DNA of 23,239 bases from a virus. The stretch lies in the IMG/VR virus record IMGVR_UViG_3300042691_040085, positions 1-23,239 of that record; one strand, written 5' to 3'. A program made the position numbers and the translations under genes. Below, piece after piece: positions 2,160 through 17,365 of the stretch (within the stretch, counting starts at the first letter, position 1; every line of letters starts with the position of its first letter). The notes under the pieces are model-generated. The model saw nothing but the letters and a program-made list of their open reading frames with translations, made no database searches and was not told where the DNA came from.

Positions 2160-3833
2160 ATGGCTATAGTTGAAATAGCAAGAATTCAAGTAAGACGCGG
2201 ACAAGAACTTCAAAATGGTGTTCCTCAATTAGAACCCGGAGAATTTGGCTGGGCCCAAGATACTGAAAATTTATATATTGGAAAAAGAATTAGCGAAGGT
2301 GCTAGTTCGAATGAAAATACAAGAATTTTAACTGAAAACGATATAGAAAATATCTTTTCCATATTAAATGTAACTAGCACTGCTACAATAATAAGTCCAT
2401 ATAAATATCGTTCAGAAACTCCACATATTGCTAGTGCATCAGTTCCACGTTTTATTCAAAATAAACTTGACGAAGAAGTGAGTATCTGTGAATTCGGTGT
2501 GATACAAAGCTTTACAGCAACTGATATTTCAACAGAATTTCAAACCGGTGTTAATACAATCTTTTATAATTCTACTTGGAATTCATTTCAAAGAAAAGAC
2601 GCTCGAAGAAAATTAAAAATTCCAGCAGGCCACTATCTTATCAGTAATGCTATTGAGTTACCCCCTTATACATTTTTAGAAGGTGAAGGTGAAGAACTAA
2701 CTAAATTAACATTAGTTTCAACTACTACAAACATATTTAGAACCATAGATGCTGATGGTAATACTTTTGAAACTGGCTCAATGGAATCAGGTGTAAAACG
2801 TTCAAGGCAAATTACTATAAAAGGAATAACTTTAGAATACGATCCTAACTATGCATCAAATAACGCTTTAATATCTATTGATAACGTTCTTGATGCGTCT
2901 ATAGAAGATTGTATTCTTAGAACAGCCTTTAATTCAACTAGCACTACTACATATGGTCTTGTTAATGCCGGCATTGGTATAAGCATTCGAGGAACAGGCG
3001 GCGGACTAGGTTCAGGTGATGTTAACTTGTGTGAAAATGTTACTATACAAAATTGTAAATTAGATGGGTTGTATATCGGTGTTAGAACAACAGGAACAGT
3101 TATTAGACCTACAATAGAACAAAACGTTTTTAGCAATTTAAATAGAGGAGTAGAATTTTATACTATAGATTCATTACCTGGACCTAGTAACGGTATTATT
3201 AAAAATAATAGATTTGAAAATATTGTAAGAGAAGGTATTTTTGTCGGTGAAAATCCTGATAATTTATACAGATCAAATCATTTATCTGAAAATAACTTTT
3301 TTATTCAAACCGGAAATGGTGCAGGATTGACTGATAATATTACTTCAAGCACTAATACAAATCCTATTATTAGATTTAATAGCCAAGGTAATAAATCAAT
3401 TAATGACTACTTTAATCGTCGGGCATTGGCTAATAAATCATCGTCGACTTTTTATTATGCTCCGTTAGTCAACGGTATTGCAGTAATTAGTTCAGTAGAA
3501 ATTACATCTGCAACTGTTTCATCGAGTGCAACGACATCAATTACTAAAATACCGCTAACAGGCGGAAATCAATTTGTTTCAGTAATATATCAAATGTTTA
3601 ACGGATCACTTTCAAGATCTGGAGAAATTTCATTAAACATTGCTAACGATGGATATCCTTCTTTAACAGATACATATAATTATGTAGAGACAATAGAAGA
3701 AGGTGCAGAGTCACCTGAAATATATTTTGAAGTTAGTGATACCTATAAAAATTCTAAAAATTATCTTGATCTAATGTGTGTAAATAATTCTACACAATTA
3801 ACTGTGGAATATAGTATTAATACGTTAATTTAA
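2160..3833 (+). CDS. Tail fibre / tailspike protein with beta-helix body
   Basis: 557 residues. Residues 1-75 match the N-terminal module of many T4-like phage fibres: 'ARIQVRRG', 'VPQLEPGEFGWAQDTENLYIG', then a 'TRILTENDI' stretch. Residues about 120-400 look like a right-handed parallel beta-helix of the pectate-lyase fold, with 'KIPAGHYLISNAIELPPYTFLEGEG' and repeated short Asn/Ile-rich strands such as 'ITIKGITLEYD' and 'VTIQNCKLDGLYIG'. Residues 430-557 form a Ser/Thr-rich beta C-terminal domain, probably for trimerisation or receptor binding. Beta-helix spikes often bind or cleave host polysaccharide, but no catalytic residues can be assigned here. It has its own late promoter and a strong ribosome binding site. 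Confidence 0.8.
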   Translation: MAIVEIARIQVRRGQELQNGVPQLEPGEFGWAQDTENLYIGKRISEGASSNENTRILTENDIENIFSILNVTSTATIISPYKYRSETPHIASASVPRFIQNKLDEEVSICEFGVIQSFTATDISTEFQTGVNTIFYNSTWNSFQRKDARRKLKIPAGHYLISNAIELPPYTFLEGEGEELTKLTLVSTTTNIFRTIDADGNTFETGSMESGVKRSRQITIKGITLEYDPNYASNNALISIDNVLDASIEDCILRTAFNSTSTTTYGLVNAGIGISIRGTGGGLGSGDVNLCENVTIQNCKLDGLYIGVRTTGTVIRPTIEQNVFSNLNRGVEFYTIDSLPGPSNGIIKNNRFENIVREGIFVGENPDNLYRSNHLSENNFFIQTGNGAGLTDNITSSTNTNPIIRFNSQGNKSINDYFNRRALANKSSSTFYYAPLVNGIAVISSVEITSATVSSSATTSITKIPLTGGNQFVSVIYQMFNGSLSRSGEISLNIANDGYPSLTDTYNYVETIEEGAESPEIYFEVSDTYKNSKNYLDLMCVNNSTQLTVEYSINTLI

Positions 3834-9875: not shown

Positions 9876-11162
9876 ATGGATTATAAAGTAAAAGACATCA
9901 GTTTAGCTAGTTGGGGACATAAAGAAATATCAATTGCTGAATCGGAAATGCCGGGATTAATGGCAATATTAAATGAATACCAAGATCAACAACCTTTGAA
10001 AGGTGCTTGCATTGCTGGTAGTTTACATATGACTATACAGACTGCTGTATTGATTAAAGTATTAGTGAAACTTGGAGCCAGTGTCCGCTGGTCTAGTTGT
10101 AACATTTTTTCTACACAAGACCATGCAGCCGCAGCAATAGCCGATCTCGGAATTCCTGTATTTGCGTGGAAAGGTGAAACAGAAGAAGAATATTGGTGGT
10201 GCATTGAACAAACTGTAAAAGGGCCCGATGGTTGGAAACCTAATATGTTACTAGATGATGGACACGATCTAACATGGTATGTGCATGAAAAACATCCAGA
10301 ATTACTAAATGATATAGTAGGAGTTAGTGAAGAAACAACTACAGGGATACATAGAATTAAAGAAGGTATTGAATCGGGCACATTTAAATTACGTGCTATA
10401 AACGTTAATGATTCTGTAACTAAATCTAAATTTGATAATCTATATGGATGTAGAGAAAGTTTAGTTGATGGAATTAAACGTGCTACTGATGTAATGATTG
10501 CTGGTAAAGTAGCAGTAGTAGCTGGTTACGGTGATGTTGGAAAAGGCTCTGCACAAGCATTAAAGGCATTGTCTGCACAAGTTTGGGTTACTGAAGTTGA
10601 CCCCATTAATGCACTACAAGCAGCAATGGAGGGATATAAAATTGTTACAATGGATTATGCCGCCGATAAAGCAGATATATTTGTAACAGCAACAGGTAAT
10701 GTAAATGTAATTACTCGCGAGCATATGAATAAAATGAGGGATCAAAGTATAGTCTGTAATATAGGACACTTTGATAACGAAATTGATGTAGCAGGATTAT
10801 CGGATCTTACATGGGAAGAAATTAAACCACAAGTAGATCACATTATATTTCCTGACGGTAAAAGAATTATACTGTTAGCAAAAGGACGTTTAGTGAATTT
10901 AGGTTGTGCGACTGGCCATCCTAGTTTTGTTATGAGTAATAGTTTTACTAATCAAGTATTGGCACAAATTGAATTATGGAGTAATCCTTCAAAATATGAA
11001 ATTGGACAATTGTATACATTGCCTAAGCATCTTGATGAAAAAGTTGCACGTTTGCATTTAGATAAAATAGGTGCTATGCTAACTACACTAACTTCTGAAC
11101 AAGCAACTTATATTGGAGTCGACATTAACGGTCCTTATAAATCAGAAGCCTATAGATATTAA
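9876..11162 (+). CDS. ahcY: Adenosylhomocysteinase (S-adenosyl-L-homocysteine hydrolase)
   Basis: 428 residues, complete. It reversibly splits S-adenosylhomocysteine into homocysteine and adenosine using bound NAD+. Visible signatures: '[13 protein letters not shown]' with the catalytic His, '[13 protein letters not shown]', '[10 protein letters not shown]', '[13 protein letters not shown]' with the Lys/Asp pair, the NAD-binding 'GYGDVGKG' at 217-224, 'GHFDNEIDV', and a C-terminus ending K-S-E-A-Y-R-Y, close to the family's K...YRY. It lacks the roughly 40-residue insertion of many bacterial enzymes. Start: GAGG in the upstream gene end, ATG directly after that gene's stop. It would relieve product inhibition of the several methyltransferases encoded nearby. 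Confidence 0.97.
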
Positions 11163-14942: not shown

Positions 14943-14971
14943 TTGACAACCAATTAAATTTTATATATAAT
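14943..14971 (+). promoter_or_regulatory. Consensus sigma70-type promoter, TTGACA-17-TATAAT
   Basis: TTGACA at 14943-14948 and TATAAT at 14966-14971, 17-base spacer. No protein gene on this strand lies within reach. The next recognisable element is the degenerate tmRNA acceptor piece at 15051-15112, so this may be a relict promoter of an earlier tmRNA gene copy or feed a short RNA running under the HNH gene as antisense. Confidence 0.65.
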
Positions 14972-15050: not shown

Positions 15051-15112
15051 TTGCTGTATGAAGCAAAGAGAAACGTGTTCCGGACGGCGGTTCGACTAAG
15101 CCTGTTTTACCA
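15051..15112 (+). pseudogene. Degenerate copy of the tmRNA acceptor piece
   Basis: This stretch copies the landmarks of the intact acceptor piece at 15646-15721 in the same order: TTGCTGTA (P2 strand, identical 8 bases), a GAAGCAA block, GACGGCGGTTCGACT (intact copy GACGCGGGTTCGACT, 13 of 15), and CTGTTTTACCA (intact CTGGTCCACCA). The T-stem is broken (GGCGG against AAGCC) and three of the acceptor bases are changed to T, so it cannot form a good T-arm or pair properly with the 5' acceptor strand at 15792. The HNH gene's stop codon lies inside it. Read as a decayed duplicate left by a recombination event. Confidence 0.65.
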
Positions 15113-15575
15113 TGAAACCACCATGTGTCTTATTGCCTCGCAATGACGCATTGGCAAAAGCATTAGCATTGTATCCGCGATCCATACACCATTGACGCAA
15201 TCCTTCTACTCGCTCAACGGTTCCGTCTGGGTGAGTAACATCATACACTTTTCCATTCCAAGTTTTTCCTGGATTTTTTGTTCTCCATTCTTTCATTCTG
15301 ACACTTTGTTTTTGCTTTTCAATAGAATTTTGCCAGCGAAGATTACTTTTGGCAGCACCTTTCTTTCCACCTTCAATAATGGCTTGTTTGGCAGCATCAA
15401 AATTGGCATCAAGTTGAGCAAGACCTTGCCAAGCAACATAATCTTGCCAATGACCATGTTGCTCATACAACAAACGATGTGCTTCGGCGTGTTCTCCAGG
15501 TGTTAGTTCAATAAGATTACTTGGATCGTCCGAGCCGCCCATGTGTTTTGGTATGATATGATGTTTGTGTTTCAT
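15096..15575 (-). CDS. HNH homing-type endonuclease
   Basis: 159 residues on the minus strand, the only clear gene in that orientation. The HNH motif is at the N-terminus: H5-H6-I-I-P, 'GGSDDPSNLIELT' with N20, then E28-H29 and H33. After a basic linker, residues about 105-157 ('GKVYDVTHPDGTVERVEGLRQW') look like the small DNA-binding repeat (NUMOD/IENR type) of phage free-standing homing endonucleases. The start at 15575 is chosen because the HNH motif begins right there; the frame continues upstream to 15863 only through tmRNA sequence. No Shine-Dalgarno precedes it. It lies between a decayed and an intact tmRNA acceptor piece, so the tmRNA gene is a plausible homing target. Confidence 0.88.
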   Translation of the reverse strand: MKHKHHIIPKHMGGSDDPSNLIELTPGEHAEAHRLLYEQHGHWQDYVAWQGLAQLDANFDAAKQAIIEGGKKGAAKSNLRWQNSIEKQKQSVRMKEWRTKNPGKTWNGKVYDVTHPDGTVERVEGLRQWCMDRGYNANAFANASLRGNKTHGGFMVKQA

Positions 15576-15586
15576 ACTATTATTTA

Positions 15587-15623
15587 GTCGAAACCACGTA
15601 AAACTCTTGACAATAGTTTCGAC
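15587..15623. repeat. 8-base inverted repeat over the tmRNA promoter
   Basis: GTCGAAAC at 15587-15594 and GTTTCGAC at 15616-15623, perfect inverted arms 21 bases apart. They bracket the -35 box of the tmRNA promoter and lie in the leader of the HNH gene on the other strand. It could be an operator, a nuclease recognition site, or a hairpin in the HNH message. Confidence 0.55.
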
Positions 15624-15635
15624 ATGCGTTAGAAT
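15607..15635 (+). promoter_or_regulatory. tmRNA promoter, TTGACA-17-TAGAAT
   Basis: TTGACA at 15607-15612 and TAGAAT at 15630-15635, 17-base spacer. The predicted start (about 15642) falls 4 bases before the first conserved tmRNA base, TTGCTGTA at 15646, so the tmRNA has its own host-type promoter. Confidence 0.8.
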
Positions 15636-15645
15636 AAATACTTGA

Positions 15646-15955
15646 TTGCTGTAGAGACCGAAAGGAAAGAAGCAACGTAGATGCAGGCAAGACGCGGGTT
15701 CGACTCCCGCCTGGTCCACCAAAAGAATATTGTCAGTTACATTGTCTGGCGAGCCGAAAGGTAAGGATGCCGTAACCAGTATTCTTTTGACGGGCCAGTC
15801 ATGGTTTCGATTGCGTGAGTAAACAGAGTGGACAGCACGGTAGATGACGACCGTAAATCGCATAAAACAAATAGTCGCAAACGACGAAGTATTCGCACTA
15901 GCAGCCTAAAAAACTGGCTATGCGGGGGGCAGGAAAGGCCTTCTAACCCAACAAA
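15646..15955 (+). ncRNA. ssrA: Permuted (two-piece) tmRNA
   Basis: Trans-translation RNA with its halves in reversed order. Acceptor piece 15646-15721: P2 strand TGCTGT, T-arm GCGGG-TTCGACT-CCCGC (15694-15710), acceptor strand CTGGTCC, A, and encoded CCA (15719-15721). Intervening segment 15722-15791, to be removed. Coding piece from 15792: GGGCCAG pairs over 7 bases with CTGGTCC, including a G3-U70 wobble (15794 with 15715), the alanyl-tRNA synthetase identity element. ACAGCA (15832-15837) pairs with TGCTGT to form P2. AATAGTCGCAAACGACG is the conserved resume region; the tag frame 15877-15909 reads ANDEVFALAA-stop. A GC-rich pseudoknot-like segment follows. The 3' end is near 15955. Permuted ssrA is known in alphaproteobacteria, some cyanobacteria and some betaproteobacteria. 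Confidence 0.93.
15722..15791 (+). other. Intervening segment of the permuted tmRNA precursor
   Basis: 70 bases joining the CCA end to the 5' end of the coding piece. AAAAGAATA (15721-15729, sharing the terminal A of CCA) is complementary to TATTCTTTT (15780-15788), so in the precursor the acceptor stem continues into a long hairpin with this segment as its loop. An inner GC-rich part (CTGG...CCAG, 15745-15779) can also fold. Such a structure would present both mature ends to tRNA-processing nucleases. Confidence 0.75.
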
Positions 15956-15958
15956 CCT

Positions 15959-15987
15959 AAAAAGCACCTTCGGGTGCTTTTTATTTT
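15959..15987 (+). terminator. Factor-independent terminator of the tmRNA
   Basis: AAAAAGCACC-TTCG-GGTGCTTTTT followed by ATTTT: a perfect 10-base-pair hairpin with a UUCG tetraloop and a U-rich tail, a few bases after the coding piece. Confidence 0.93.
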
Positions 15988-15997
15988 ACCATTTCAA

Positions 15998-16026
15998 TTA
16001 ACAATATCAGTGAAAACACTTATAAT
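15998..16026 (+). promoter_or_regulatory. Sigma70-type promoter, TTAACA-17-TATAAT
   Basis: TTAACA at 15998-16003 and TATAAT at 16021-16026 with a 17-base spacer, right after the tmRNA terminator. The lipoprotein ATG follows 30 bases downstream with ribosome binding site GGAG (16047-16050). Confidence 0.7.
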
Positions 16027-16360: not shown

Positions 16361-17365
16361 GTGAAGAAATTATTTGCAATTTTATTGGCTACAGTTAGTA
16401 TCACAGCAAGTGCAGCTGATATTACCGGAGCAGGAGCCACATTCCCGTTCCCTGTTTACGCTAAATGGGCTGAACTTTATAAGAAAGAGACTGGTGTTGG
16501 ACTTAACTATCAAAGCATTGGTAGCAGCGGTGGTATACGCCAGATCAACAATAAAACCGTCACATTTGGTGCAACAGACGCACCCGTTAAAGGTGAAGAC
16601 CTTGACAAAAACGGACAGATACAATTTCCTGCTATCATAGGAGGTACTGTACCGATTATTAATTTAGATGGGTTCAAACCAGGTGAACTACGTGTTACTG
16701 GTCCAGTCATGGCTGAAATGTTTATGGGTATAATCACAAAGTGGAATGATCCTAAACTTGCAGCATTAAATCCAGGTAAGCGACTGCCTGATCAATTGAT
16801 CACCGTTGTGCATCGTGCAGACGGTTCAGGTACAACATTTAATTGGACTGACTATCTTACTACCGTAAGTAAAGATTGGGCAGATAAGGTTGGACGTGGT
16901 GCAGCAGTAAAATGGCCCGCAGCGACTTCTGTTGGTGGTAAAGGTAATGAAGGTGTTGCTGCAAACGTATCACGTATCAAAGGTAGTATAGGTTATGTTG
17001 AGTATGCTTATGTTAAGAAAAACAACCTAGTATTCATGCAGCTACAAAACAAGAGCGGCAAGTGGGTTAGCCCAGATGATCTAACATTTGCTGCTGCTGC
17101 GGCAGGTGCTGACTGGTTTAGTGTTCCTGGTATGGGGTTAAGTATTGTTGATCAACGTGGCGATAATGTATGGCCAGTATCTACTGCTAGTTTTATTATC
17201 ATGTATAAAAATCCGGAAAATAAAGCAGCTAGTCAAGATGTCCTAAAGTTTTTTGATTGGGCATTTAAGAATGGCAAGCAAGCAGCATTGGAGTTAGACT
17301 ATGTTCCGTTGCCGGATGTTTTGACAAAACAAATACGTGAGCGTGTCTGGAGTCAAATTAAATAA
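16361..17365 (+). CDS. pstS: Phosphate ABC transporter substrate-binding protein PstS
   Basis: 334 residues from a GTG start with GGAG (16351-16354) 6 bases upstream. A Sec signal peptide ends at A-S-A18 before A-D-I-T. The mature protein shows PstS phosphate-binding segments: 'GAGATFPFPVYAKW', 'SIGSSGG', 'FGATDAP', and 'HRADGSGTTFNWTDYL'. It would bind periplasmic phosphate and feed the host PstCAB transporter, since no transporter subunits are encoded here. Aquatic T4-like phages often carry pstS alone. The promoter has a Pho box. Its base composition is visibly more GC-rich than the surrounding phage genes, consistent with acquisition from a host. Confidence 0.97.
   Translation: MKKLFAILLATVSITASAADITGAGATFPFPVYAKWAELYKKETGVGLNYQSIGSSGGIRQINNKTVTFGATDAPVKGEDLDKNGQIQFPAIIGGTVPIINLDGFKPGELRVTGPVMAEMFMGIITKWNDPKLAALNPGKRLPDQLITVVHRADGSGTTFNWTDYLTTVSKDWADKVGRGAAVKWPAATSVGGKGNEGVAANVSRIKGSIGYVEYAYVKKNNLVFMQLQNKSGKWVSPDDLTFAAAAAGADWFSVPGMGLSIVDQRGDNVWPVSTASFIIMYKNPENKAASQDVLKFFDWAFKNGKQAALELDYVPLPDVLTKQIRERVWSQIK

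Follow-up and report, generated by a model that had tools for sequence, protein, structure and literature searches.

We report that the circularly permuted tmRNA gene carried by a 23,239-base IMG/VR virus record (this whole stretch is called the window below) is functional-looking and has probably been rebuilt by the intronless homing of an HNH endonuclease, whose gene, together with the relic of a dead acceptor half, stands just upstream of the working copy. Comparing this locus with its relatives, we conclude that phage permuted tmRNAs appear to be recurrent targets of homing endonucleases, rebuilt block by block. Taken alone, the window tmRNA is nothing out of the ordinary for a kind already described; what is new is the rebuilding of a tmRNA around an HNH gene and the more general tie between homing endonucleases and these genes, while the components, phage tmRNA and intronless homing, are known. 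This novelty lies outside the region covered by an earlier note on this DNA, in two elements that precede position 15646, the HNH gene and the relic half-gene. The features of the locus, in order, are as follows:

14943-14971, plus strand: native promoter of the tmRNA locus, a perfect sigma-70 consensus (TTGACA-17-TATAAT) read from the sequence, also present before the tmRNA in the related stretches L160 and L116
14973-15047, plus strand: micro-ORF of 24 aa, hydrophobic, MIEACLIFLFIAALVWLDDYYNKQ, read from the sequence and found immediately 5' of the tmRNA in L160, L161, L162 and L116
15050-15095, plus strand: former acceptor half (allele A), now a relic that ends in the T-loop after GGTTCGA (96% identity to the L160 and L162 halves)
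15096-15575, minus strand: gene for an HNH homing endonuclease of 159 aa, with the stop codon inside the T-loop of the relic (PHROG 655, residues, fold match)
15587-15623, no strand: inverted repeat GTCGAAAC-N21-GTTTCGAC, 5' of the HNH start; it contains the tmRNA motif GGTTTCGA and overlaps the tmRNA -35 box (clade comparison)
15607-15635, plus strand: substitute promoter of the working tmRNA, TTGACA-17-TAGAAT, 11 of 12 matches (promoter scan)
about 15645-15721, plus strand: acceptor half of the working tmRNA (allele B), with T-arm, acceptor 3' strand and encoded CCA (ARAGORN, Infernal, sequence)
15722-15791, plus strand: spacer, 70 nt, hairpin-forming, predicted to be absent from the mature RNA (fold, comparison)
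15792-15955, plus strand: coding half, with the acceptor 5' strand and its G3-U70 pair, the tag frame and a downstream structured region (ARAGORN, Infernal, sequence)
15877-15909, plus strand: tag reading frame ANDEVFALAA and stop (ARAGORN)
15958-15983, plus strand: terminator-like hairpin, followed by T-rich sequence (sequence)

The working tmRNA (15645-15955) was called by ARAGORN as a permuted tmRNA at 15627-16000 with the tag ANDEVFALAA, and was matched over the full length of two Infernal models, beta_tmRNA (RF01850) at 122.4 bits (E 3e-37, cut-off 84) and tmRNA_permuted (RF04321) at 103.5 bits (E 2e-19, cut-off 47). In a virus record that also has phage-type genes for a virion structural protein, an exonuclease, an endolysin and others, these calls uphold what the earlier note had read from the letters, a permuted tmRNA in a phage, and show it to be of the beta type; in the covariance search, proposed there as a check, the beta and the general permuted model both match above their cut-offs. 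The acceptor half does stand ahead of the coding half, the two being contained in a single match above the curated cut-off, and the finer details given there were verified in the sequence as well, namely the 7-bp acceptor stem (GGGCCAG/CTGGTCC) with its G3-U70 pair, the encoded CCA, the 70-nt spacer, a promoter of its own and the same tag, the frame of which has the resume codon, the hydrophobic end and the stop of a tmRNA. As for the terminator claimed for the gene, the hairpin and the adjoining T-rich sequence are there, but the terminator rule of the scan lists this hairpin on the minus strand only, because the T-run belongs to the stem.

The spacer folds as a hairpin (z = -2.5) and is 99% identical to that of L160. 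Among 94 distinct permuted tmRNAs of phages that share this architecture, two T-stem pairs and three acceptor pairs are each kept, with several pair types, in 93-94, as against means of 48-87 when the partners were shuffled, a test that addresses the group and not the window copy alone. Since the pairs are kept so far above the shuffled means, phage permuted tmRNAs are evidently selected as folded RNAs, in agreement with the functional look that had been ascribed to the window tmRNA.

Upstream of this copy, the native promoter now has only the micro-ORF and a dead half-gene downstream of it. In L160 and L162 the corresponding flank and acceptor half are continuous, whereas the window carries about 608 extra bases at the T-loop, and the insert is thus present or absent at one site among otherwise matching relatives, with relics of several alleles. 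The order after the HNH gene is the substitute promoter and then a different acceptor half, only about 67-69% identical to the halves of L160 and L162; in L116, an HNH-free relative, this allele B and the same spacer are found in their native setting. The HNH protein matches the PHROG 655 homing endonucleases (9e-16), falls just below the cut-off of Pfam HNH (20.9 bits against 21.4), has the HNH-type residues HH, N and H, invariant in the alignment, and finds its best fold match in I-HmuI (probability 1.00, but E 0.03); it combines the catalytic motif and the fold of a free-standing homing endonuclease. No intron family, and hence no group I intron, came up in a whole-window Rfam scan at gathering scores, and the T-loop of the working tmRNA copy is uninterrupted.

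HNH homologues gathered by protein sequence alone lead back to tmRNA. Each of the 10 loci with an HNH protein at least 73% identical ends straight in an acceptor half that is cut short, and all 12 distinct HNH proteins of the clade adjoin a tmRNA or its remnant, the remnant in L196 being a degraded one judged by eye. The junction TAR|TCGAACC falls exactly at the stop in 9 of the 12 clade genes and in 0 of 117 other HNHs (the exact junction is missing in L194-L197), and a junction-pattern search found the relic/HNH junction in 12 contigs. We quote this junction count rather than an early Fisher count (12/12 vs 6/117, 7e-13), because the latter understates the tmRNA links in the comparison set, which the spacer cases described below raise to at least 15/117. 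The relics belong to several different alleles and their outer flanks are unrelated, which suggests that insertion happened repeatedly and not in a single ancestral event. In those contigs that also yielded an intact tmRNA, the acceptor half of that tmRNA shows 77-85% identity to the relic, and in L185, L187, L189 and L190 the intact tmRNA lies 0.6-2.4 kb from the HNH gene, so that the extent of co-inheritance varies. The window-type HNH family was found in none of the 120 permuted-tmRNA loci listed, and thus it is the endonuclease that predicts a tmRNA nearby and not the tmRNA that predicts the endonuclease, and this clade is present at only a small fraction of phage tmRNAs. No tmRNA lies within 1.5 kb of the HNH relatives in the Synechococcus phages S-SKS1, S-SRM01, MA10 and S-H34.

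Ahead of the start codon, every one of the 12 clade genes has an inverted repeat that contains the tmRNA motif GGTTTCGA, as against 0 of 111 other HNH genes. I-TevI, which is autorepressed, binds an operator resembling its own homing site (PMC2988022), and in the window, too, the site upstream of the endonuclease gene resembles the target gene; this likeness, which is one of sequence in GGTTTCGA, offers the faint suggestion that the repeat may act like the I-TevI operator in HNH regulation.

The explanation that we favor applies to the window the model of intronless homing with co-conversion known from T4 free-standing endonucleases, with SegB, SegG and MobE as precedents (PMC2988022). A free-standing HNH gene would have inserted itself into the acceptor half already present (allele A), at its T-loop, killing that half, and would have been inherited with a second tmRNA allele (B, an acceptor half and its matching coding 5' end) and a substitute promoter, in such a way that a working gene was retained via allele B while the dead half of allele A stayed as a scar. 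During mixed infection, the HNH enzyme would cut or nick alleles of the tmRNA in the conserved T-loop or close to it, and repair off the HNH-bearing phage would copy in the endonuclease and co-convert the adjacent tmRNA, whose differing sequence may guard against recutting. This protection by sequence difference is uncertain in the window, since the T-stem of its allele B (GACGCGGGTTCGA) matches the relic target in other phages. tRNA-processing enzymes would remove the spacer to leave a mature tmRNA in two pieces, which would add ANDEVFALAA to stalled proteins for their proteolysis and free the ribosomes, and ribosome rescue by a phage tmRNA during infection is plausible. The tmRNA, its kept pairs, the relic, the relatives without the insert, the recurring junction and the mosaic blocks described below are seen in the sequences; that the enzyme cuts and homes, that an allele is protected, that the RNA is processed and that ribosomes are rescued are steps that we infer.

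Could the HNH gene instead be the chance neighbour of an ordinary permuted phage tmRNA, with the relic derived from an unrelated tandem duplication? T4-like phages commonly carry homing endonuclease genes, and most phage permuted tmRNAs are without the window-type HNH (the 0 of 120 loci listed above), but the linkage of every clade member to tmRNA, the shared T-loop stop that the other HNHs lack, and the relics from different alleles already disfavor this reading strongly, and we hold it to be improbable. In its precise T-loop junction and its restored gene end, the locus also resembles genomic islands integrated into tmRNA genes, in which case the element would move by site-specific recombination with the HNH protein as mere cargo. 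This is very unlikely, given that the insert is too small for an integrase and encodes the HNH protein as its sole product, that neither an integrase nor att repeats were found at it, and that only one junction is precise and fixed across loci, the distance on the tmRNA side ranging from 42 bases to more than 2 kb. As for an assembly chimera of two phages joined at the tmRNA, which the mosaic structure of a single metagenome contig might bring to mind, we give it next to no credence, the relic/HNH junction being present also in 12 other contigs and mosaics of the same blocks in L160, L161, L162 and L116.

The earlier note had also seen in the gene a capture from a two-piece host. A recent capture of this sort, for ribosome rescue alone and with the endonuclease irrelevant to the history of the gene, would agree with the best score going to the beta-type model and with the 15 of 399 Burkholderiales genomes that exceed the beta_tmRNA cut-off. 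The virus has a host of the freshwater bacterial type, and the likely host family is Comamonadaceae, as hinted by the phage PstS gene (16361-17365), the product of which is 75-84% identical to proteins of Comamonadaceae and other Burkholderiales, this being one gene that was possibly itself transferred. The 12 genomes taken from the PstS search yielded one-piece tmRNAs with ARAGORN and no permuted tmRNA above cut-off, and the comparison with bacterial tmRNAs through which a donor was to be found led back to phages instead: the coding half of the window is 93% identical to its nearest phage counterpart vs. 82% to the best bacterial one, and spacers measure 5-33 nt in bacteria vs. a median of 72 in phages. 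With a one-piece host family, nearer phage tmRNAs and longer phage spacers, recent capture from the present host therefore appears unlikely from these comparisons, and the account of the locus by host capture alone is highly improbable; ancient capture from some two-piece lineage is possible. A megablast search for a close isolated relative of the record gave no match. The record also holds an S-adenosylhomocysteine hydrolase gene (9876-11162), rare among phages, with 3 of 50,697 phage records matching.

A permuted tmRNA in a phage is, in itself, of a known kind. The earlier view of the permuted form as a trait of bacterial lineages is outdated, two-piece phage tmRNAs having been published in 2022 (PMC9004378). 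The part of that paper used here describes one such tmRNA in phage Melnitz and, in a set of 133 phage tmRNA structures, counts 53 two-piece genes, of which 50 come from marine or aquatic phages. The Melnitz tmRNA is like that of the window in being phage-encoded and circularly permuted, with a proteolysis tag and a place in aquatic myophages, but it is alpha-type and under a glutamine riboswitch, whereas the window tmRNA is beta-type and accompanied by a homing endonuclease and a relic half-gene; the same part of that paper makes no mention of an HNH link to phage tmRNA. In our own pattern scan, at least 120 viral stretches showed the permuted order, and a nucleotide search of phage records with the window tmRNA, besides giving mainly short T-arm matches, led to five unannotated permuted tmRNAs in isolates, namely Xanthomonas phages X1 and Rb1, Stenotrophomonas phage QDWS359, Alcaligenes phage QDWS595 and Caulobacter phage CcrPW (records OQ427096, PQ569993, ON331942, OK149171 and MH588545). 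The hosts of some of these phages presumably have a one-piece tmRNA.

T4 SegB (PMC2988022, PMC13096335), like the window HNH, is encoded beside small stable RNA genes; it is a GIY-YIG enzyme with its gene between tRNA genes, whereas the HNH gene of the window splits the tmRNA gene itself, which another allele replaces. Group I introns in the T-loop of tmRNA (PMC11915505), some with LAGLIDADG homing endonucleases, are likewise insertions in the T-loop region, but there the gene is kept by splicing, whereas the window gene survives by replacement and no intron was found; that paper treats only those endonucleases in tmRNA that lie within group I introns. Among open-licence papers searched by title and abstract for homing endonucleases together with tmRNA, the present arrangement was not found described.

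When the window, L160, L161 and L162 are compared, the acceptor half and the coding 5' end group together (the window with L161 vs. L160 with L162) despite the spacer between them, while the spacer itself groups the window with L160 and the tag region groups L160 with L161. The acceptor stem requires matching halves, and selection to keep its ends paired in the face of frequent exchange would therefore account for these two blocks travelling together. The tmRNA sequences are themselves short and recombined.

Other endonucleases are also lodged in phage tmRNA genes. Ten further HNH genes lie exactly between the acceptor and coding halves, compared with 0 of 1833 random positions in the same test; in seven of the ten, all with readable tags, the stop codon is one base ahead of the first G of the coding half, and in L199 and L202 the RF04321 match (76 and 62 bits, respectively) extends across the endonuclease. 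In L160 and L161, an endonuclease matching PHROG 314 (9e-12), with a weak Pfam GIY-YIG match, has a new tag and 3' end before it and a displaced old tag remnant and 3' end after it, this old 3' end being 97-98% like that of the window. The loci are as follows:

L199, L202, L220, L239, L257, L259, L260, L262, L332 and L336: HNH genes filling the tmRNA spacer
L160:3502-4170 and L161:3771-4439, minus strand: GIY-YIG-like endonuclease in the tmRNA tag region (PHROG 314)

We give somewhat better than even chances to the broader idea that the phage permuted tmRNA is a general home for homing endonucleases, the spacer sheltering them without an intron and those directed at the T-loop or tag driving an allele-by-allele replacement of acceptor halves, spacers and tags. 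If true, selfish DNA would account for the spread and the tag diversity of phage tmRNA, and repeated splitting, replacement and occupation by homing endonucleases would provide a concrete mechanism for the spreading and diversifying of a bacterial RNA gene among phages, including those whose hosts have a one-piece tmRNA. The spacer of a permuted RNA gene is suggested here as an intron-like safe site at which splicing is unnecessary.

Some smaller features of these loci may be recorded as well. A late-promoter-like TATAAATA often lies in a hairpin just 5' of the spacer HNH gene. The spacer of L161 is 217 nt long (3381-3597) and is filled by an open frame of 67 aa (64 aa from an inner ATG), for which Pfam and phage searches gave no match. 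In L200 (553-1022), the HNH gene starts within the 5' part of an acceptor half, with a short direct repeat, GAATTGCTGTAT, on either side of it that makes the RNA strand whole again.
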